A DNA stretch of 46,814 nucleotides from a virus, in the IMG/VR virus record IMGVR_UViG_3300034374_004182, positions 1 to 46,814 of that record; one strand, given 5' to 3'. The position numbers and the translations under genes are program-made. A model generated the notes under the pieces. The model did no database searches. It was not told where the DNA came from and saw only the letters and a list, made by a program, of their open reading frames with translations. Position 1 is the stretch's first letter. Each line of letters begins with the position of its first letter. Positions 1,625 to 46,504 of the stretch are shown here, piece after piece.

Positions 1625-3342
1625 TGGACCCACAATTATTACAGCTAATACAAAGCATTCAGAACCAACAGAGGGGTTTAGCTACTCTAAGTAGATCTGT
1701 AGATAGCCTCGGCAAACAGATTCAGAATCAAATAGCTGCTATAGGAGCCCAGGGAACAGGAGGCGGTACTCCTCCCCCATCACCAGAGCCTACAGGATTT
1801 CTTGACCAACTAACCAATACTATAAAGGGTGCTTTTACTAATGTAGCAAACTCATTCGTATTAGATCTTAAGGAGTTCGTAACCCTTTCCGACAGACTCG
1901 CAGGACTAGGTTCTGACATTAGTGTTCTTGGGGATAGTGTAGTAGGTCTTGATGGGGGTTTACTAACAGCAGCTAAAAACTCATCAGCCCTTTTAGAAAT
2001 GGGCTTTGATCCTCTTAACAGACAAGTGCTAAACCTAGCTGGTAGGATGGATGTAACAGGACAATCTACAGCAGTCCTATTCGGTAGCATTGAGAAACTT
2101 GTTAGACAAACTGATTTATCAAACAGTGAGATAGGGGATCTAGCGACAACTGTACAACAAAACTCAGAGGAAACTGGAGTAAGTACAGAAAGAATAGTTA
2201 AAGGACTCGACTCACTATCAAAGAGTTTGGATTTCTTAAATATAGCAGGTCTTTCAACTGAAGTTCAGTTCCTCACTGTAGAGTTACAGAAAGGATTACC
2301 CGCATCACTACAAGCTCTTCCTGGACAACTAATAAGCGGATTAGTTGAAGGAGGCGAAGGTTTAAGATCTGTTCTTGGTGTAGGAGGCGGTCGTTTAGAA
2401 GAAATTTTAGCGATGGGGACTGAAGGTGGTCCTGAGTTCCAATTAGCAATTGGCGAACTTAGAGATAGACTAGATAAGCAAATAGGTCTATCTCAATTAT
2501 CGTTCGCAGAGCTAGAAGCAATTGGACCAGCTTTCGGAGGACCTCAGATATTAAATGCTATAAAGCAATTAGATGATGCGTTTAAGGAAGGGCCACCAGA
2601 AGCAAATATACAAGACGCCTTCGACGGTAGCATCAAAAACCTCGTTAACACACTGAAGGAACCCCTTCAATTCATAGCGTCTGTGCTTATTGAAAACTTT
2701 GTGGAGTTTATTAAACCTATAGCCGTTTTCTTAAAAGATAATAGGGAGAAGGTAATAGATGTTATAAAAGAAGCAGGTAATAAACTATTTCAAGGTATCC
2801 TAGCAACCGCAACCTTACTAGGAAATATTCTAAAACACACAGATAAGATTATAGGTGTTTTAGTAGCATCCAAGATAGCAGGCTCAATAGCTCCAACTTT
2901 AACTTCTCTCGGCATGGTATTCGGAGGTCCAGCGGGAGCAGCCGTAGGCGGGTTGTTAGGTGTCGGGGCTGGCGTTTTAGGTGGAGCGTTTGCAGCCGAT
3001 AAGGTTTCCAAAATTACAGATCCTATAACAGACGGACTTGGAGAACTTAAAAACTTACTTCAAGGAGCTAATGATCTAACTGAACAGCAGATTACTGAGG
3101 ATAGACTTTCAAGAATTTCTACACCTCCAGAAAGACAGCAGACGGATTTTGAGTTGTTCATAGGTAACTTTATGAGAGAAAGCTTTACAAACCTATCTAT
3201 GTCGCAGTCAGGTAGAGCAGTTATAGAAGAAAGAATGCTTGACGCATTAGAGAATATTGGGAATAATCAACTCGGTACAACCAGAGCCGTCATAGAATCT
3301 AGCGACGACAGCGTTTTAAGGAGTAATAATTTAGATGGATAA
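1624..3342 (+). CDS. Tail tape measure protein (gp29-like)
   Basis: At 572 aa this is close to T4 gp29 (590 aa), the baseplate-hub tape measure that sets tail length and is ejected ahead of the DNA. It starts with a Gln-rich coiled-coil-like stretch (LIQSIQNQQRGLATL), then a Gly/Pro linker near residues 40-56 (GTGGGTPPPSPEPTG), long amphipathic helices, and a hydrophobic Gly/Ala region at about 385-465 (GPAGAAVGGLLGVGAGVLGG) typical of the membrane-active part of tape measures. It is followed by the tube-initiator, gp53-like and hub genes, the expected neighbours. Junctions are TAATG upstream and an 8-nt overlap downstream. The assignment comes from composition, size and synteny rather than a catalytic motif. 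Confidence 0.72.
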   Translation: MDPQLLQLIQSIQNQQRGLATLSRSVDSLGKQIQNQIAAIGAQGTGGGTPPPSPEPTGFLDQLTNTIKGAFTNVANSFVLDLKEFVTLSDRLAGLGSDISVLGDSVVGLDGGLLTAAKNSSALLEMGFDPLNRQVLNLAGRMDVTGQSTAVLFGSIEKLVRQTDLSNSEIGDLATTVQQNSEETGVSTERIVKGLDSLSKSLDFLNIAGLSTEVQFLTVELQKGLPASLQALPGQLISGLVEGGEGLRSVLGVGGGRLEEILAMGTEGGPEFQLAIGELRDRLDKQIGLSQLSFAELEAIGPAFGGPQILNAIKQLDDAFKEGPPEANIQDAFDGSIKNLVNTLKEPLQFIASVLIENFVEFIKPIAVFLKDNREKVIDVIKEAGNKLFQGILATATLLGNILKHTDKIIGVLVASKIAGSIAPTLTSLGMVFGGPAGAAVGGLLGVGAGVLGGAFAADKVSKITDPITDGLGELKNLLQGANDLTEQQITEDRLSRISTPPERQQTDFELFIGNFMRESFTNLSMSQSGRAVIEERMLDALENIGNNQLGTTRAVIESSDDSVLRSNNLDG

Positions 3343-33764: not shown

Positions 33765-34175
33765 ATGAACAGAGATCAATTAAGAGAAGCCGTACTCGGC
33801 ACCGCAGCCTGGAACAAGGCTGGTTTACTTAACGAGTCCGTTGCTCCCGTTCAGGAGCAAGAGGTCATCGAAGAAGCAAAGGCCGAGGAGACTGCTCCTG
33901 AGGCTCACACTTGCCCTCTCTGCGAGTCCACCCTCGATGGTGAGCTTTCAGACGAAGCTCTTCTTGAGCACGCCTCAGCCATGCTAGGTGTATTCCAAAA
34001 TGCAGAGCAAATCCTTGCTGAGGCCGAGGAAGCCGAAGAAGGTGAGGTTATAGAAGAAGACGAAGAGGAGGAGGAAGTTGACCTCCTTGAAGGTCTTGAC
34101 GAAGAAGATATTCAGACCATCGCTGAGATGTGTGCTGATATGAAGAAGAAGAAGAAAGGTAAGAAAGCTTACTGA
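33765..34175 (+). CDS. Acidic prohead core protein (gp67-like)
   Basis: A 136-aa protein starting at ATG 33765, seven bases after a clean AGGAG; an in-frame TTG at 33744 lies inside the hairpin and is rejected. It is very acidic in its second half (EEGEVIEEDEEEEEVDLLEG) with a sudden basic tail (MKKKKKGKKAY). A CPLC pair followed by Leu and His (HTCPLCESTL ... LLEHASAML) resembles a small zinc-binding knuckle. In T4, acidic gp67 lies just before gp68, protease gp21, scaffold gp22 and capsid gp23, the same order as here. LLNE|S at residues 21-25 is a candidate prohead-protease site. Function is inferred from synteny and charge. Confidence 0.5.
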   Translation: MNRDQLREAVLGTAAWNKAGLLNESVAPVQEQEVIEEAKAEETAPEAHTCPLCESTLDGELSDEALLEHASAMLGVFQNAEQILAEAEEAEEGEVIEEDEEEEEVDLLEGLDEEDIQTIAEMCADMKKKKKGKKAY

Positions 34176-34184
34176 TTTTTAAAC

Positions 34185-34607
34185 ATGGCTTCTCTTAACG
34201 ACATAGGTATGGGGATTGGAGACTTTGCTCTTAATTTATTAGAGCAAGAGTCCTCCAACCCTGTTCCTGTTAAGAACAAGTCTTCTATGAAGGGTAATGT
34301 ACCTGACATAGAGAATGTCCAAGTTTCTAAAGAAGATGTTAACAGTGTGCTTGCTGAATCATTTGGTATTAAAACTGAAAGCAAGCCTCAAGTTAATCTT
34401 CAAGAAGAAAGAAGAAGACAGTTAAAGGAAGAAATTCAACAGAAGCTTGACGAGTTGAAGGTTCTTCTTAATGAACTGGGTGTAGGGATAGGTGCTACGA
34501 CTACAGGGAGCTTTGCTCCTAACTTTTCTGGAGGAAAATCTTGTGAGCCTCATAGACCAAATAAGAAGTCTGCGCGGAGACGAGCAAAAGTTAGAAGAAA
34601 AAAGTAG
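34185..34607 (+). CDS. Head-module protein, probable core/internal protein
   Basis: A 140-aa protein, not recognised by family. Two candidate (L/I)-x-E processing sites occur: LNLLE|QE at residue 20 and VLAE|S at 58. A predicted coiled coil spans about 68-100 (LQEERRRQLKEEIQQKLDEL) and the C-terminus is strongly basic (KKSARRRAKVRRKK), suited to DNA contact. Position between the gp67-like gene and the protease suggests a gp68-like core or internal head protein. No Shine-Dalgarno is seen before the ATG at 34185. The end of this gene overlaps the next by about 65 nt. Confidence 0.5.
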   Translation: MASLNDIGMGIGDFALNLLEQESSNPVPVKNKSSMKGNVPDIENVQVSKEDVNSVLAESFGIKTESKPQVNLQEERRRQLKEEIQQKLDELKVLLNELGVGIGATTTGSFAPNFSGGKSCEPHRPNKKSARRRAKVRRKK

Positions 34608-34995
34608 TCGCTATCCTAATGGTAGAGGCACTTACAAGAGAGGGGAGAAATCCGTATCTAGAAAAAGTAAGGTTCCTAACTACTCAACTATAAAAGACGC
34701 CCTTAAAAAGACAAAGCCTGGAACTATATTCTCAACAAAAGGTTCTTATAGATTGTATGTAACAACCTCTGGAGGATGGGGCAAGAGCAAGCAGCAAAGA
34801 GTTTCTGGTAGAACCGCAAAAGGTTTTACTCCTGGAAGCTCTACCCCAGGTTCTGATTGGAAGAGTATTAAAAGCCACGCCGCTAGAACCTCTGTTAAGC
34901 ATGGCGGCGCAGGAGCAAAGAGCTTAACAGCTAAAGCCCGTAGAGAGGCTGACAAACCGAAGAAATATAAGGCTAAGGCCAAAAGGAGTAAGTGA
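34543..34995 (+). CDS. Basic head-module protein, unknown
   Basis: A 150-aa protein. The frame opens further upstream at GTG 34492, but a GGAGGA at 34530-34535 lies seven bases before an in-frame GTG at 34543, which I take as the start. It is highly basic and low in acidic residues: RGTYKRGEKSVSRKSKVPN near the start, TAKARREADKPKKYKAKAKR at the end, with a small core (YSTIKDALKKTKPGTIF, then SYRLYVTTSGGWGKSKQQRV). It may be a DNA-associated core or internal protein. It overlaps the previous gene out of frame by 65 nt and the protease gene by TGATG, so it is embedded in the head operon. Confidence 0.5.
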   Translation: MSLIDQIRSLRGDEQKLEEKSSRYPNGRGTYKRGEKSVSRKSKVPNYSTIKDALKKTKPGTIFSTKGSYRLYVTTSGGWGKSKQQRVSGRTAKGFTPGSSTPGSDWKSIKSHAARTSVKHGGAGAKSLTAKARREADKPKKYKAKAKRSK

Positions 34996-36275
34996 TGCTA
35001 ATCGAAGATGTATTTATTATTGAGAACCTACAGGTGCTTAACGAAGGTAAGAACGGCCCTATGAAAGTCCGTGGCGTTTTCCAGCGTGCAGACGAGGAGA
35101 ACAACAACAAGCGTATTTATCCCAAGGAACTTCTTTGCCGTGAGATTGAGAAGCTTGAGGAGTCCATGAAGAACCGTCGTCTTATGGGGGAGCTTGATCA
35201 CCCTCAACACGATAGCGTCAAGCTCTCTAATGTTTCACACCTTATCACTAAGCTCGATGTTGATGGTAATGAAATCATTGGTGAGGCAGAGATCCTTGAT
35301 ACTCCTATGGGTAAAGTAGCCAGAGCCCTTATTGAAGGAGGTGTTCAGATCGGTATTTCATCACGCGGCATGGGTACTTTATCTGAGGGTCAGGACGGTA
35401 AGCGTTATGTCAACGAAGACTTCCGCCTTATAACCTGGGACCTTGTAGCAGATCCTTCAACCCGTGGTGCATTCCCTGCACTATCCGAAAGCACAAACCT
35501 TAACAGCATGTTAGTTGAGGAAATCCTTAATGATGTTCTTCCCAAGGTTACTCAAGAGAAAGTATTCTCCACCCTTCTTCGTGAGCGTCTTGATGAAGCC
35601 AAGATGAAAAGATCAAAGAAGAAGAAGGGAAAGAAAGGCCGTAAACTTGATCCCGTTGGTAAGGAAGATGCTGATGTTAACAATGATGGTAAGGTTGACA
35701 GCACTGATGGTTACTTAAAGAATAGAAGACAAGCCATTGGCGCAGCTATGGGCAAGAAGTCCAAGAAAGTAAAAGGTAAAAAAGCTATGAAAGAAAATAC
35801 TGTATTATTTAGCCGTCTTTCTCATGTTTTACTTGAGTCTGATAGTGATAGGTTTGTTAACGCTGGCCGTCAATCTGGCACTGAGATGGAGTCTGATGAT
35901 CCTAGAGTTGATGAGATACTCGGCTTAATTAAAAGGGGTCTTGGGGCAGCCAAGCAGGTAGGAAAGGCTGCTATTGCTGGAGGTGCAGGCGAGGCTGCTA
36001 AAATGGCTTCAAAGGCCAAGCAGCGTACTGCTGGTCAGCAAGGTAGAGAGACCCAGAAGATCAAAAAGATCGGTAGTACAGATACTGGTGGTAGCGTAAG
36101 AGCAACCCTTAAGCAAGCAGGTAGCTTAGTTGCTTCCAAGCTTAGAAGAAAAATTGCTCAAGGTAAGAAAGAGATCTACGGCAAAGTTAAGTCCGGTGCC
36201 GAGGCTGTTCAAAAGAAAATGTCAGAAGAGCTTCAAAGAAGACTTGTAATGCTTCTTGTTAACGAGGGAAAATGA
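34995..36275 (+). CDS. Prohead core protease (gp21-like) with long basic EF-hand extension
   Basis: A 426-aa protein; ATG 34995 is preferred over GTG 34992 because AAGGAG (34983-34988) then has a normal six-base gap. Residues 1-170 carry the gp21 serine-protease core: RRLMGELDHPQHDSVKLSNV with His69, IIGEAEILDTPMGKVA, and VQIGISSRGMG with Ser122/123. In T4 this enzyme cuts capsid and core proteins after (L/I)-x-E. T4 gp21 is 212 aa; here ~250 more residues follow, with poly-Lys (KRSKKKKGKKGRKL), an EF-hand/dockerin loop at 227-238 (DVNNDGKVDSTD) and a long basic helical tail. LSE|S165, LDE|A201 and LLE|S281 are possible self-cleavage sites, so the tail may be released as internal head peptides. 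Confidence 0.85.
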   Translation: MLIEDVFIIENLQVLNEGKNGPMKVRGVFQRADEENNNKRIYPKELLCREIEKLEESMKNRRLMGELDHPQHDSVKLSNVSHLITKLDVDGNEIIGEAEILDTPMGKVARALIEGGVQIGISSRGMGTLSEGQDGKRYVNEDFRLITWDLVADPSTRGAFPALSESTNLNSMLVEEILNDVLPKVTQEKVFSTLLRERLDEAKMKRSKKKKGKKGRKLDPVGKEDADVNNDGKVDSTDGYLKNRRQAIGAAMGKKSKKVKGKKAMKENTVLFSRLSHVLLESDSDRFVNAGRQSGTEMESDDPRVDEILGLIKRGLGAAKQVGKAAIAGGAGEAAKMASKAKQRTAGQQGRETQKIKKIGSTDTGGSVRATLKQAGSLVASKLRRKIAQGKKEIYGKVKSGAEAVQKKMSEELQRRLVMLLVNEGK

Positions 36276-36538
36276 AGTACTACGACAGACTTTTAGAACT
36301 TATCTCTGAGGTCAAGGTTATTGCTAGAAAAGTAGAGCAAAAACCTCAAGAGGTAAAAAAGTATAGTACAGGTAGGGATGATTATAGAAAGGATCAGGAA
36401 GCTGATAGACAAGATGCGAGGAGAATTTTAAGAAGTAAGAGCACTGACTCGAACCAATCGAAAGGTGCAGCATTTAGAAGGGCAACTGATAGAAGACAAT
36501 CAGATAGAGGTCGTGCTTCTAGATCAAATCCTTCCTAA
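36272..36538 (+). CDS. Small basic head protein, candidate internal protein
   Basis: An 88-aa protein that overlaps the protease gene by ATGA. The first residues MKYYDRLLELISE|V are strongly reminiscent of the T4 capsid-targeting peptide (MKTYQEFIAE|A) that gp21 removes from internal proteins. The remainder is polar, basic and probably disordered (DRQDARRILRSK, then FRRATDRRQSDRGRASRS). This fits a packaged DNA-binding internal protein, though no fold is recognised and the call is by motif and context only. Confidence 0.5.
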   Translation: MKYYDRLLELISEVKVIARKVEQKPQEVKKYSTGRDDYRKDQEADRQDARRILRSKSTDSNQSKGAAFRRATDRRQSDRGRASRSNPS

Positions 36539-36632: not shown

Positions 36633-37256
36633 ATGGATAAAAAAAGAATTGATAACATAGCTGATTTACTTCCTGAAGGTATTACTGAGGATACTGTCCT
36701 TGAGATTGCCGAACTTATGCAGGATTTAATTGAGCAAAGAGTACAGGAAGAGGTTAGTGACCTTAACGATAAGGTTTTTGCTTACCTATCCATGAAGCGT
36801 CAGCAGATTCAAGAGGCAGCCATTGAGGAGCTTCATGAGTCCAACGATGTTTATCGTGATGCACAAAAGTTCCGTGAGCTTATGGGCTACATGGCAGTTG
36901 AGCACCGTCCTGAGTACATTGATGCTGAGAGCGAGCGTAGATTGTCAGAAGCTTCTGAGCTAGTCGAGGACAATGAAGTCCTTGCCCGTGAGCTTTCTGA
37001 GTCACTAAGAGAGCAAGAGCGTCTTGCTAAAACAATTCAACTGCTAGAATCTAAGGTCTCAAAGCGTGAAAGAGAAATCGAATCACTTAATGAGAGCGTA
37101 CAGTTTCTATCAGAAGAAAAGGAGGCTATACTGATCGAGTCTACCGAGCAGGCTGTAGTCGTTACTAGTAATGTAGACGAAGAGGTTAAGGATGAACAAC
37201 TGGAAAGCATTGGAAATCAGTTCTTGACCGAAGAAATGCTCAAATTAATGAAATGA
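36633..37256 (+). CDS. Prohead scaffold protein (gp22-like)
   Basis: A 207-aa scaffold. It is acidic and almost entirely helical with heptad patterning: DTVLEIAELMQDLIEQRVQE, then DLNDKVFAYLSMKRQQ, and a long coiled coil from residue ~110 to 175 (RLAKTIQLLESKVSKRE, REIESLNESVQFLSEEKE). Such proteins form the core on which gp23 assembles and are then degraded by the protease. It sits between protease and capsid genes as in T4 (21-22-23) and is somewhat shorter than T4 gp22 (269 aa). Arg codons are mostly CGT, like the capsid gene, implying strong expression. Confidence 0.82.
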   Translation: MDKKRIDNIADLLPEGITEDTVLEIAELMQDLIEQRVQEEVSDLNDKVFAYLSMKRQQIQEAAIEELHESNDVYRDAQKFRELMGYMAVEHRPEYIDAESERRLSEASELVEDNEVLARELSESLREQERLAKTIQLLESKVSKREREIESLNESVQFLSEEKEAILIESTEQAVVVTSNVDEEVKDEQLESIGNQFLTEEMLKLMK

Positions 37257-37281: not shown

Positions 37282-38811
37282 ATGGAAATTATGGAAATGG
37301 GTGCATCTGACGAGCTAGTCTCCAAGTGGGGTCCAGCCGTTGACGGCATCGAAAATGATTATACCAAGAGAGTTACTGCACAGCTTCTGGAGAACCAACT
37401 AAAGTCTAGCCAACAGGATCGTGTTGACGAGGCTGCTGTTGGTATCGGTACTACCACTGTTGGTAGCATTGGCACTTTCCAGAAGTTCGCATTCCCTCTC
37501 GTTCGTCGGGTATTCCCCGAACTAATCGCTAACAGCATTGTTAGCGTTCAGCCTATGAGCGCACCCGTCTCACAGGTCTTCTATCTTGGTGCTGCTAGGG
37601 CTTACGACAACGCTACTCGTCAGACTATCTACAGCAAGTACAACCTAACCTACCGTGGCCTTACTACTGGCGAGGTTCACGGTCCTCAGGATTCTATGGA
37701 TCTTGATGCTGGTGTGTCTGAAACCTCACAGCAGCTAGGTCTTTCCGCTTTAAGTGGTGAGGGTGTCGTCGGTCAAGGGCCTAACATGGCTTCTGCCATT
37801 TCTGTTTGGCCCGCCGCAAACTTTGCACAAGGTTGGTCAGTATCTGCTGGTGAAGCTCTTGCTGGCGCTAAGATTCCTGAAGTTACCCTTCAGATCGAGC
37901 AACAGCCTGTTATCGCACGCACCAAGAAGATGCGTGCCCTCTGGACCCTTGAGGCTTCACAAGACCTTAAGGCTTACCACAACCTAGATCTTGAGCGTGA
38001 GCTTACTGATCTTCTTGGTAAGGAGATTCGTCTAGAGGTTGACCGTGAGCTTATCGAGAACCTTCGCGGTATTGCTTACGATCTCACTGGTAAAGGTAGT
38101 GATCTTTTCGACATGCAAATGCTCGATCAGGCAAGCAACCAAGATGGTCTTGGAAACTTTGCTGGTGTTAATGGGGATTCAAACTTCAGCAGCTTCCTTT
38201 TCACTAACGACGGTGCTGGAGGTACTGGTGATCTTAAGGCCGCACTTCCTGGCGTAAGTGTTCACAAGAACACTTGGCTTGTTGATCTCACCTCAAGTGC
38301 TTTCAACTTCGCTCCCCGTCACATTGGCGATATCTACTCCAACATCCTTGGTGTAATCAACTTCGCCTCACAGGACATTTACAAGACCACTCAGCGTGGT
38401 GCTGGTAACTGGATGATCTGTGCTCCTGCTGTAGCAACTCTCCTTGAGACTGCTGCCAAGCTTAATGGTGGTATAGATCGTGCTGACGGTCCTACTAACT
38501 TCGGTCCTGGCACCATTTCTTACCGTGGTAAGTTTATGGGTCGCTTCGATCTTTATGTCGATCCTCTCTACCCAGAGGGTGAGATTCTTATGGGTTACAA
38601 GGGTTCTGGTCCCATGGACGGTGGCTTCATCTACGCCCCCTACATTCCATTCCAGGCACTACCAACCGTTACCGATCCTGAGAGCTTCCAGCCCAGAAAG
38701 GGCATCCTTACCCGTTACGGTAAGGTCGCAGTCGCTCCCGCATCACGCTTCTACCGCGTGATCCGTCTGGTCGGTCCTGCTGGTCTTTACAGCCCCTTCG
38801 AGAATGTCTGA
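37282..38811 (+). CDS. Major capsid protein (gp23-like)
   Basis: A 509-aa HK97-fold shell protein close in length to T4 gp23 (521 aa). AAGGAG at 37268-37273 lies eight bases before the ATG. The mature N-terminus is predicted at VDE50|A51 (AAVGIGTTTVG follows), since T4 gp23 is cut at E|AEIGG. Next comes PLVRRVFPELIANSIVSVQP, matching the highly conserved MVRRAIPNLIAFDICGVQP region of gp23. Further gp23-like segments are MRALWTLEASQDLKAYH, LEVDRELIENL and the closing RKGILTRYGKVAVAPASRFY. Codon use differs from neighbouring tail genes: most Arg codons are CGT/CGC, many codons end in C, and G+C is visibly higher, as expected for the most abundant protein. A strong terminator follows. Confidence 0.95.
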   Translation: MEIMEMGASDELVSKWGPAVDGIENDYTKRVTAQLLENQLKSSQQDRVDEAAVGIGTTTVGSIGTFQKFAFPLVRRVFPELIANSIVSVQPMSAPVSQVFYLGAARAYDNATRQTIYSKYNLTYRGLTTGEVHGPQDSMDLDAGVSETSQQLGLSALSGEGVVGQGPNMASAISVWPAANFAQGWSVSAGEALAGAKIPEVTLQIEQQPVIARTKKMRALWTLEASQDLKAYHNLDLERELTDLLGKEIRLEVDRELIENLRGIAYDLTGKGSDLFDMQMLDQASNQDGLGNFAGVNGDSNFSSFLFTNDGAGGTGDLKAALPGVSVHKNTWLVDLTSSAFNFAPRHIGDIYSNILGVINFASQDIYKTTQRGAGNWMICAPAVATLLETAAKLNGGIDRADGPTNFGPGTISYRGKFMGRFDLYVDPLYPEGEILMGYKGSGPMDGGFIYAPYIPFQALPTVTDPESFQPRKGILTRYGKVAVAPASRFYRVIRLVGPAGLYSPFENV

Positions 38812-44266: not shown

Positions 44267-46504
44267 ATGAAGAAGTTTGCTATAGAACTACTGGAAAGCT
44301 ACTCAAAGTTAAGAGAACAAGCTCCTGCTGCCATGACACCTGAACAGGCAATAAGTATGGCAGGTGAAAGTATAAAGGCACCCAGAGTATTAAAAGGTGG
44401 ATCAGGGGGTACAGGAAGGATATGGAAGACTACGCGAAAAACTATAAGCTTTCAAAGAGACGCGCCTAACGCTAGAGCAAACAAAGTAGACGGCCCTGGA
44501 TCCGAAGGTTATGATGACCTAGCTGCATTCCTATCTGGTGCAGCGACAACACAACAGCCTGTTCAAATAAGCAAGGCTGAAAGACAGCAGATGGAACGAG
44601 ATCAAAGACAGCAAGAAACTGTTGATGGTCTTAACGAAGCTTTCCCTGGACTAGGAGACTCTGTTAACTCTTTACACGCAAAACTAACCTCTGTTAGAGA
44701 AAGGGTCCTTAAAGGTCTTAATGAAGAGAGATTACACAGTCAGTTCTTTTCAAACGCAAACAATAGTGTAAGGACTTTAACAAATAAGATGATTGAAAGA
44801 GACATGTTATTTGTAGAGCAGAGTGCTGACACTGAAGAAAAAGGAACCACAGTATTCGAGCGTGAGCCTCCATCACCAGATCAAGCTAGAAGAGCATTTA
44901 AAAACTACGAGAAGCTAATAACATTAACTGATCAACTTATGAGAGGTCAGAGAGATCCTAAAAATGCTATAGAGGATATTAGGAGGATGAAGCAACTCCT
45001 AATGAAAAATGATAAGGGTCAGGTGTTTATAAAAATAGACGGTAGATCTTTAGGTGGCATATGTCTTATGCCCAGCGAAAGGCACTCTCTTAACGAGGTT
45101 ATACAGCAGTATGAGAAAGAGGTAGACAGGTTTACTAAAGATAATTCTGATCTGTTAGACGAAGGGGAGACGCTTGCTCTAGACACCTTCGATTTCTCTA
45201 AGTCTAGCTTCAATCACTCTAATGTTGTAAAGGAAGTATCCGAGACATTAGAGATGGCCGCGCATCATATTGCTAATGGTGATGCATCTTCAGCAAAGCC
45301 ATACCTTCTTAATGTTGTAAGACAATACAAGGATAGTATAGGCAAAGCTCTCCAATTACAGAGAGGTATGTTAAGTGAGGATGATGCAGAACTAGGAGCC
45401 ATGCTCACTGAATTAGGTATAGAGAAAGGAACCAAAGACGAGGTTGAGAAGGCTGTAGTTTCTATTGTCCAAGGTTACTTGAAGCCTAGGATAGATTTCT
45501 ACAACAGATTCAAACCAGACTTTGTATCTAGAGTAGGTGAAGGTGATGTAGGTAAAGGGTTCAAGCCAGACAACATGTTGGTCTGGACAGATAAACCTAC
45601 TGATTCTGCACTAGATCCGTTTGTCCAGAAAGTCAAATTTCAGAACCTTGACAAGAAGACACAACAAGCTATAGTAAAGAGTGGTGGATCACCTACTGGT
45701 GATTATTATGTAGCTGGTGTATCTTTAAAGACTTACCTTGGTGGTACAGAGACTAAAGTAGGATCTACCTATGGATTTGTTGGACTAGGTGAGCGTTACG
45801 GCACTGGTGTAGGTTTAGGAACACACGAAAAGAATGTGCGTCAACGCATGTTAAACGCTGGTCTATCTACACAGCAGTTCGATGCTGCAAGAACTGAGCT
45901 AACTAAACTTACAGGTGCATCAAACTTCTGTAGAGATATTGTTGCAAACGATGCACTAAACCTAGTAGGGAAAACACCAAAGCAAGCTCAAGGTATAGTT
46001 ACATCTCATATAAAACTGATGATGAAAACCCACGGTATTGAAATGCCTTTAAATGACCCACAGTATATAGAAAAACTAAAGGGCGCTGACGGTACTATAG
46101 ATCCAAGATCTTTATCTAGATTCTCTGTACATCTGGAGAAACAGATGCACCTAAAGATTATTGAAAAATCATTATCAGATCGAGGTAAGTCCGAGATGGA
46201 TAATAAAGATCCTATGTTACACGCTCTACTTTTAATGGGTGTAGATGCAGGTATAGACTCTACACAAACAAATGTCATGGGCGTCACAACTAAAACTGAC
46301 ACCAATGAGAGCCATGTATATAACCAGAACGGTGAGATCATGAAGAGTGTAGAAGAGGTGTTAAGTGGTAAGAGACCCTTTACCTTCTCCAGATCAGGAT
46401 TAAGGATTGATAGAGGTATGAAGGTAGAGCTTAACAATGAGAGGAATAGAGTAGCAGTTAACTCCTACATTCCATCTATTCAAGAAAACTTAGATCTAGT
46501 CTAA
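44267..46504 (+). CDS. 745-aa unknown protein, candidate packaged internal head protein
   Basis: Not recognised by family. The N-terminus MKKFAIELLE|SYSKLRE|QAP is like the T4 capsid-targeting peptide (MKTYQEFIAE|A), with a Glu at position 10 after L-x. The rest is soluble: a helical N-terminal half (long polar helices at about 100-300), then a possible enzymatic or binding domain from residue ~420 (KGFKPDNMLVWTDKP at ~430, YYVAGVSLKTYLGGTE at ~480), which looks like the D...S-x-K spacing of divergent PD-(D/E)XK nucleases but lacks a clear Glu. The last third contains conserved-looking Gly and His patches. No Shine-Dalgarno precedes it; it follows a terminator by 14 bases and converges on the last minus-strand gene (9-nt overlap). 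It could be an Alt-like injected protein, or a large virion protein of another type. Confidence 0.5.
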   Translation: MKKFAIELLESYSKLREQAPAAMTPEQAISMAGESIKAPRVLKGGSGGTGRIWKTTRKTISFQRDAPNARANKVDGPGSEGYDDLAAFLSGAATTQQPVQISKAERQQMERDQRQQETVDGLNEAFPGLGDSVNSLHAKLTSVRERVLKGLNEERLHSQFFSNANNSVRTLTNKMIERDMLFVEQSADTEEKGTTVFEREPPSPDQARRAFKNYEKLITLTDQLMRGQRDPKNAIEDIRRMKQLLMKNDKGQVFIKIDGRSLGGICLMPSERHSLNEVIQQYEKEVDRFTKDNSDLLDEGETLALDTFDFSKSSFNHSNVVKEVSETLEMAAHHIANGDASSAKPYLLNVVRQYKDSIGKALQLQRGMLSEDDAELGAMLTELGIEKGTKDEVEKAVVSIVQGYLKPRIDFYNRFKPDFVSRVGEGDVGKGFKPDNMLVWTDKPTDSALDPFVQKVKFQNLDKKTQQAIVKSGGSPTGDYYVAGVSLKTYLGGTETKVGSTYGFVGLGERYGTGVGLGTHEKNVRQRMLNAGLSTQQFDAARTELTKLTGASNFCRDIVANDALNLVGKTPKQAQGIVTSHIKLMMKTHGIEMPLNDPQYIEKLKGADGTIDPRSLSRFSVHLEKQMHLKIIEKSLSDRGKSEMDNKDPMLHALLLMGVDAGIDSTQTNVMGVTTKTDTNESHVYNQNGEIMKSVEEVLSGKRPFTFSRSGLRIDRGMKVELNNERNRVAVNSYIPSIQENLDLV

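Follow-up and report, generated by a model that had tools for sequence, protein, structure and literature searches.

A marine T4-like phage gene that probably encodes a self-cleaving prohead protease fused to hypervariable head cargo

The window analysed here, 46,814 nucleotides of IMG/VR virus record IMGVR_UViG_3300034374_004182 (positions 1 to 46,814), contains an open reading frame of 426 residues (34995-36275), in which a gp21/S77 prohead protease core (residues 1-165) is followed by a C-terminal extension of 261 residues. Sequence comparison on balance favours the view that this gene encodes a self-cleaving polyprotein, the protease being fused to hypervariable cargo of the phage head, and head maturation and the loading of variable peptides may be united in a single gene. 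The architecture, the conservation and enrichment of candidate cut sites, the exchange of cassettes, and the helices and cargo common to free-standing genes are read from the sequences; cleavage, packaging, injection and calcium binding are what we infer.

Residues 10-165 matched Peptidase_S77 in Pfam (9e-26), and the core matched PHROG_207 (1.6e-51) as well as the structure of T4 gp21 (5jbl), the latter both by sequence (1.5e-16) and by predicted fold (Foldseek, 2e-11). In the 5jbl alignment Ser123 was placed opposite the catalytic Ser of T4 gp21, and His69, Ser122 and Ser123 were all invariant among the relatives. The protein thus has a catalytic domain homologous to that of T4 gp21, with its His and Ser, and the gp21-like core with His69 and Ser122/123 named in a preliminary description of this DNA was borne out. 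The long basic tail with poly-Lys noted there was likewise present. Gene order resembles that of T4 (67-68-21-22-23), small acidic and basic genes being followed by the protease, a gp22-like scaffold and the gp23 capsid protein (Table 1); the protease gene hence lies between core genes and gp22/gp23, the capsid gene being assigned by Pfam and the scaffold gene by position. In the capsid protein of most relatives [VIL]DE/A is kept at the expected propeptide junction (a slash marks a predicted cut), and head proteins are therefore expected to be cut with the same specificity. On sequence comparison, the phage is a marine T4-like member of a lineage with no cultured representative. Identity to cyanophage gp21 reaches about 49% in the protease core, and the best isolate matches of the capsid protein are only about 29% identical.

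Table 1. Features of the protease gene and of neighbouring head genes (window coordinates; a slash marks a predicted cut)
Feature	Coordinates	Strand	Basis or remark
Acidic head-operon gene, N-terminal LLNE/S	33765..34175	+	gp67-like by position only; start set from homologues
Small gene with LLE and LLNE sites	34185..34607	+	Sequence
Basic gene, N-terminal propeptide-like segment ending LEE/KSS	34543..34995	+	GTG start inferred from homologues
Protease core, residues 1-165	34995..35489	+	Pfam S77, PHROG_207, 5jbl; His69, Ser123; ends at conserved L-x-E, ALSE165/S
Linker 166-201, ends LDE201/A	35490..35597	+	Probable C-terminal propeptide of the ancestor; gp21 of cultured cyanophages stops close by
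Predicted cargo piece 1, residues 202-281, net charge +16	35598..35837	+	Lys-rich, loop module, boundary helix ENTVLFSRLSHVLLE281/
Calcium-type loop DVNNDGKVDSTD, residues 227-238	35673..35708	+	Sequence, Pfam comparison, loop count versus shuffles
Acidic spacer 282-307, ends VDE307/	35838..35915	+	L023 and L027 have the same [IV]DE before the related block
Predicted cargo piece 2, residues 308-426, basic, predicted helical	35916..36272	+	Further site VNE424
Small Arg-rich gene overlapping protease stop, N-terminus MKYYDRLLELISE/V resembling targeting propeptide	36272..36538	+	Gene of this kind at the same position in relative L047
gp22-like scaffold	36633..37256	+	Assigned by position and a coiled-coil-like sequence; matches no family
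Major capsid protein gp23, likely propeptide site VDE50/A	37282..38811	+	Pfam Gp23 9e-76; site alignment

Relatives were drawn from IMG/VR and comprised 21 close loci and a wider set of 74, with 37 non-redundant sequences for tail counts. Three L-x-E sites had been proposed earlier for the tail, and all three are present in the translation (163-165, 199-201 and 279-281); two further sites, absent from that first list, were found at VDE305-307 and VNE422-424. Directly after the core, [LIV]-x-E-[SN] was seen in 37/37 non-redundant relatives, with x variable. In the distal tails of the window clade L.E was 2.6 times as frequent as in shuffled sequences, a level reached in 0/500 shuffles, and in those of a second clade 2.65 times; because the sequences are related, shuffle statistics and z-scores overstate the significance. 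The excess was weak in the most distant clade (1.37 times). The patterns L..E, LE and L.K were not enriched in the distal tails of the first two clades, nor was L.D when the sets were pooled; for 19 window proteins of tail, neck and baseplate, taken as a control, the L.E ratio was 1.01. In the in-tail helix of the second clade L and E are invariant and x is free. From these patterns the cut sites look selected. AlphaFold modelled the core at moderate confidence and left 158-170 and 253-302, the regions holding sites 165 and 281, unstructured; its low confidence in the tail permits no finer reading than an ordered core versus a mostly disordered or helical tail.

Cores within the window clade were 87-95% identical to that of the window, whereas the tails differ almost completely and have only blocks in common. 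Both length and content of the tails vary; whole proteins of the close loci span 272-622 aa, one with 272 aa being truncated by a contig edge. The gp21 proteins of two cultured-type phages, S-SKS1 and C48C1, end at 217 and 219 residues, and the window cargo therefore starts about where the ancestral protein ended. Whether homologues keep the tail as a conserved part of the protease fold had been named as a check on the preliminary description; instead, the tail is replaced wholesale behind near-identical cores and, judged by this comparison, is outside the fold.

The tails are made up of exchangeable basic blocks with a recurrent helix ending in L-x-E between them. Compared with L023, locus L027 has an extra 46 residues (a Lys-rich stretch and a WAICT block) between LDE/AK and [IV]DE/[AI]LG, the flanks of this cassette being 92% and 86% identical. 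L032 and L041 have a common last block after VLSE/ and different calcium-loop blocks upstream, L005 and L111 a common RGV[KR]RLARV block behind unlike upstream blocks, and L029 and L040 are nearly identical through SKFAALKE and divergent beyond. In block maps of the relatives, the ends of the swaps coincide with [LIV]-x-E-type sites. On these comparisons the tail blocks are exchangeable cassettes. Such clean swaps, together with the specific L.E enrichment and its matched negative controls, make it very unlikely that the tail is a disordered, weakly constrained extension which drifts under compositional bias and in which L-x-E sites are incidental. Low model confidence across much of the tail and its highly variable length would agree with drift, but that explanation is already strained by the conservation of blocks across unrelated proteins.

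A switch of Arg codons near residue 205 had been put forward as the mark of a fusion. The shift itself is real, CGN:AGR changing from 12:1 upstream of residue 205 to 4:12 downstream (Fisher p = 0.0005), and was also seen in close relatives. As evidence of fusion it was rejected: AGR/AGA is the norm in most genes of the window and CGT/CGC dominates only in the protease core and the capsid gene (8:5 CGN:AGR in the scaffold gene), so that the tail follows the majority habit, from which core and capsid gene depart. The shift alone is therefore no sign of a foreign tail; codon selection on conserved, highly expressed segments is more likely.

The preliminary description had placed a canonical calcium loop at residues 227-238. 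The loop, DVNNDGKVDSTD, is indeed there, with Asp/Asn ligands at positions 1, 3, 5, 9 and 12 and Gly at 6, but "canonical" did not hold: position 12 is Asp, the loop is single rather than paired, and its score against Pfam Dockerin_1 (19.7) falls under the cut-off of 22.9. From its sequence it is better called dockerin-like or single EF-type. Like dockerin type I and single EF-hand loops, it has 12 residues, is rich in Asp and leads into a short basic helix; unlike a dockerin, it stands single and below the cut-off inside phage proteins, with no known cohesin-like partner. Calcium-type loops were present in 17/37 non-redundant tails, versus 0.04 expected from shuffles, and always occupy the first slot, starting at residues 208-227 and belonging to several different modules. 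This fixed position is what one might expect if the protease kept its tail and used it, by calcium response or DNA binding, to regulate the timing of its activation. We nevertheless consider such a role very unlikely, as 20/37 tails lack a loop, L-x-E sites stand between loop and core in the window and its clade, and the window module also occurs in dozens of protease-free proteins.

That module, LDPVGKED...DVNNDGKVD...YLKNRR, was found in dozens of unrelated phage proteins and in at least 532 confirmed viral stretches. Five further PHROG families also contain it, and it occurs in proteins that have no relation to the protease, among them a gp67-like core protein (weak PHROG_1064 match) and a 62-residue protein at L165 that consists of a helix, LTE/ and the module. 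Within 12 residues before the module, [LIVM]-x-E occurred in 28/45 non-redundant contexts versus 12.3 expected, and three control patterns were not enriched there. No further copies were found inside the window, and in related contigs the module was seen only in protease tails (3/18 contigs). A link of the module to cytidyltransferases (PHROG_764) was rejected, the common stretch being the module only.

Free-standing counterparts of the tail elements were found in several phages. At L047, a separate gene immediately 3' of the protease begins MSFVNFMRDKLMEA/, and its N-terminal helix recurs inside the protease tails of the same phage and its relatives as STQFVNFMRD[KR]L.E/. The L010 contig, with a weak match (E 0.04) to the profile of window-clade boundary helices, carries three adjacent small basic genes with such helices, one of them continuing into the WAICT cargo that lies in the protease tails of other clade members. 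As to whether the tail exists as a separate gene elsewhere, the separating helices and one cargo block do occur in small genes, but a search for free-standing relatives of cargo piece 2 found none. The only relative of ORF 36272 is in L296, which has an identical capsid protein and is cut off; coming from the same phage population, it is uninformative. The arrangement typical of T4 internal proteins, an N-terminal propeptide ending in L/I-x-E before basic cargo, was seen only in the free-standing relatives, namely the L047 gene, the L010-contig gene beginning MSSVYSRLTGLITE/ and L165. In the window tail the boundary helices are internal, not N-terminal, which is a point against the polyprotein reading.

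C-terminal self-cleavage is known for T4 gp21, phiKZ gp175 and SPN3US gp245 (PMC9026906, PMC7411985, PMC10052503). The window protein resembles these proteases in its catalytic domain, its place in the head operon, the [LI]-x-E just after the core and a C-terminal segment expected to be self-cleaved. In SPN3US gp245 the self-cleaved C-terminal propeptide has 64 residues and is thought to target the protease to the core (PMC7411985), and distal tails are basic in nearly all relatives studied here. Both observations would suit a tail that is no more than a propeptide for targeting or assembly grown large, with basic blocks that anchor the protease to the scaffold core until they are cut on activation and the fragments leave the head. 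This explanation seems rather unlikely to us, since it accounts neither for the exchange of whole blocks behind almost identical cores nor for the same helices and cargo in separate genes. Cargo, rather than a propeptide for targeting alone, is favoured by the hypervariability and the free-standing counterparts; as to whether tail peptides are retained in the head or expelled, the sequence is compatible with both.

In the polyprotein model that we prefer, an uncultured clade would have fused interchangeable basic cargo blocks behind a gp21-type protease and its ancestral propeptide (166-201), each block being bounded by a short helix ending in [LIV]-x-E that would act like the capsid-targeting sequence of T4 internal proteins. 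The protease would enter the prohead core and, once active, cut its own tail after E165, E201, E281, E307 and perhaps E424, the same enzyme also maturing the capsid protein (VDE/A) and core proteins. Predicted products are an 80-residue basic piece with the calcium-type loop and a basic helical piece of about 117 residues. The freed peptides would most likely remain in the head together with the DNA and then enter the host, like T4 internal proteins; such retention and host entry would explain their hypervariability.

T4 internal proteins carry a capsid-targeting sequence of 10-19 residues that is removed by gp21, cleaving after L/I-x-E (PMC9026906), and are injected anti-restriction factors (PMC12373910), so that the variable blocks are candidates for counter-defence. 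In IPI-IPIII and the polymorphic T-even ip genes a short helix ending in L/I-x-E precedes variable basic cargo, as in the free-standing genes described above. Unlike them, the window units are fused in frame behind a protease with their helices internal, and they are predicted cargo for which no homology to T4 internal proteins was shown. The polyvalent proteins of phages and plasmids (PMC5512222) are likewise multi-part and thought to be packaged and injected; they carry large enzymatic domains, whereas tails of the window type are short basic peptides behind a head-maturation protease. Pfam and PHROGs scans of the window and of the tails of five relatives gave no effector or enzymatic domain besides the protease above cut-off. 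Among gp21-type proteases, the C-terminal propeptides known so far are short (64 residues in SPN3US; gp21 of cyanophages ends at 217-219 residues), and descriptions of them include no hypervariable array of several blocks with sites inside it. No account of cargo-bearing prohead-protease tails or of this loop module was found in searches of mainly open-access literature. The gp21-type C-terminal propeptide itself is known; what appears to be new is its combination with predicted cargo resembling internal proteins. If correct, the model means that a head-maturing enzyme carries its own variable cargo, linking head assembly and peptide delivery in one gene. Helix, L-x-E and basic block would together also form a sequence signature by which unannotated peptides of the head interior could be recognised in uncultured marine phages, and the model bears on the role of self-cleaved C-terminal propeptides in gp21-type proteases.

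More tentatively, short mobile cassettes of cargo, with maturation-protease sites at their ends, could be the common property of marine T4-like phages and pass between protease tails, core proteins and free-standing genes; the protease tail would then be a variable cargo array. The module LDPVGKED...DVNNDGKVD...YLKNRR would be the most frequent of these cassettes, and might be a host-delivered peptide or a tag for calcium-dependent docking to the head core.

Several further observations were made in the window and in other loci. The C-terminal part of the gene at 34185 (34470-34520; LLNE/LGVGIGATTTGSFAPNF) resembles the capsid propeptide junction (37420-37480; VDE/AAVGIGTTTVGSIGTF). At 44267-46504 lies a 745-residue protein without PHROG match, possibly a large internal or ejected protein, whose N-terminus (MKKFAIELLE/SYSKLRE/) resembles a capsid-targeting propeptide. 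At more distant loci (L081-L085, L088-L090 and L093), the protease is fused to a long acidic coiled-coil-like extension of 530-664 residues that resembles a scaffold. A 967-residue protein of L113 (around 3001-3111) contains small basic blocks in series with KKEEVEQ[VI]DE-type linkers between them, and looks like a cargo polyprotein without a protease. Another conserved module, GKPGWVQVVSGKPCARQPGQTSTPKCVSS...PTYVSTD, occurs behind a boundary helix in a free-standing small gene of L193 (1686-2093, minus strand) and in at least 580 confirmed viral stretches (loci L201-L280). A second small gene of L193 (1123-1689, minus strand) has 80 C-terminal residues that match Pfam DUF6321 (1e-18) behind a WAICT block, pointing to head cargo as the identity of some DUFs in phage proteins.
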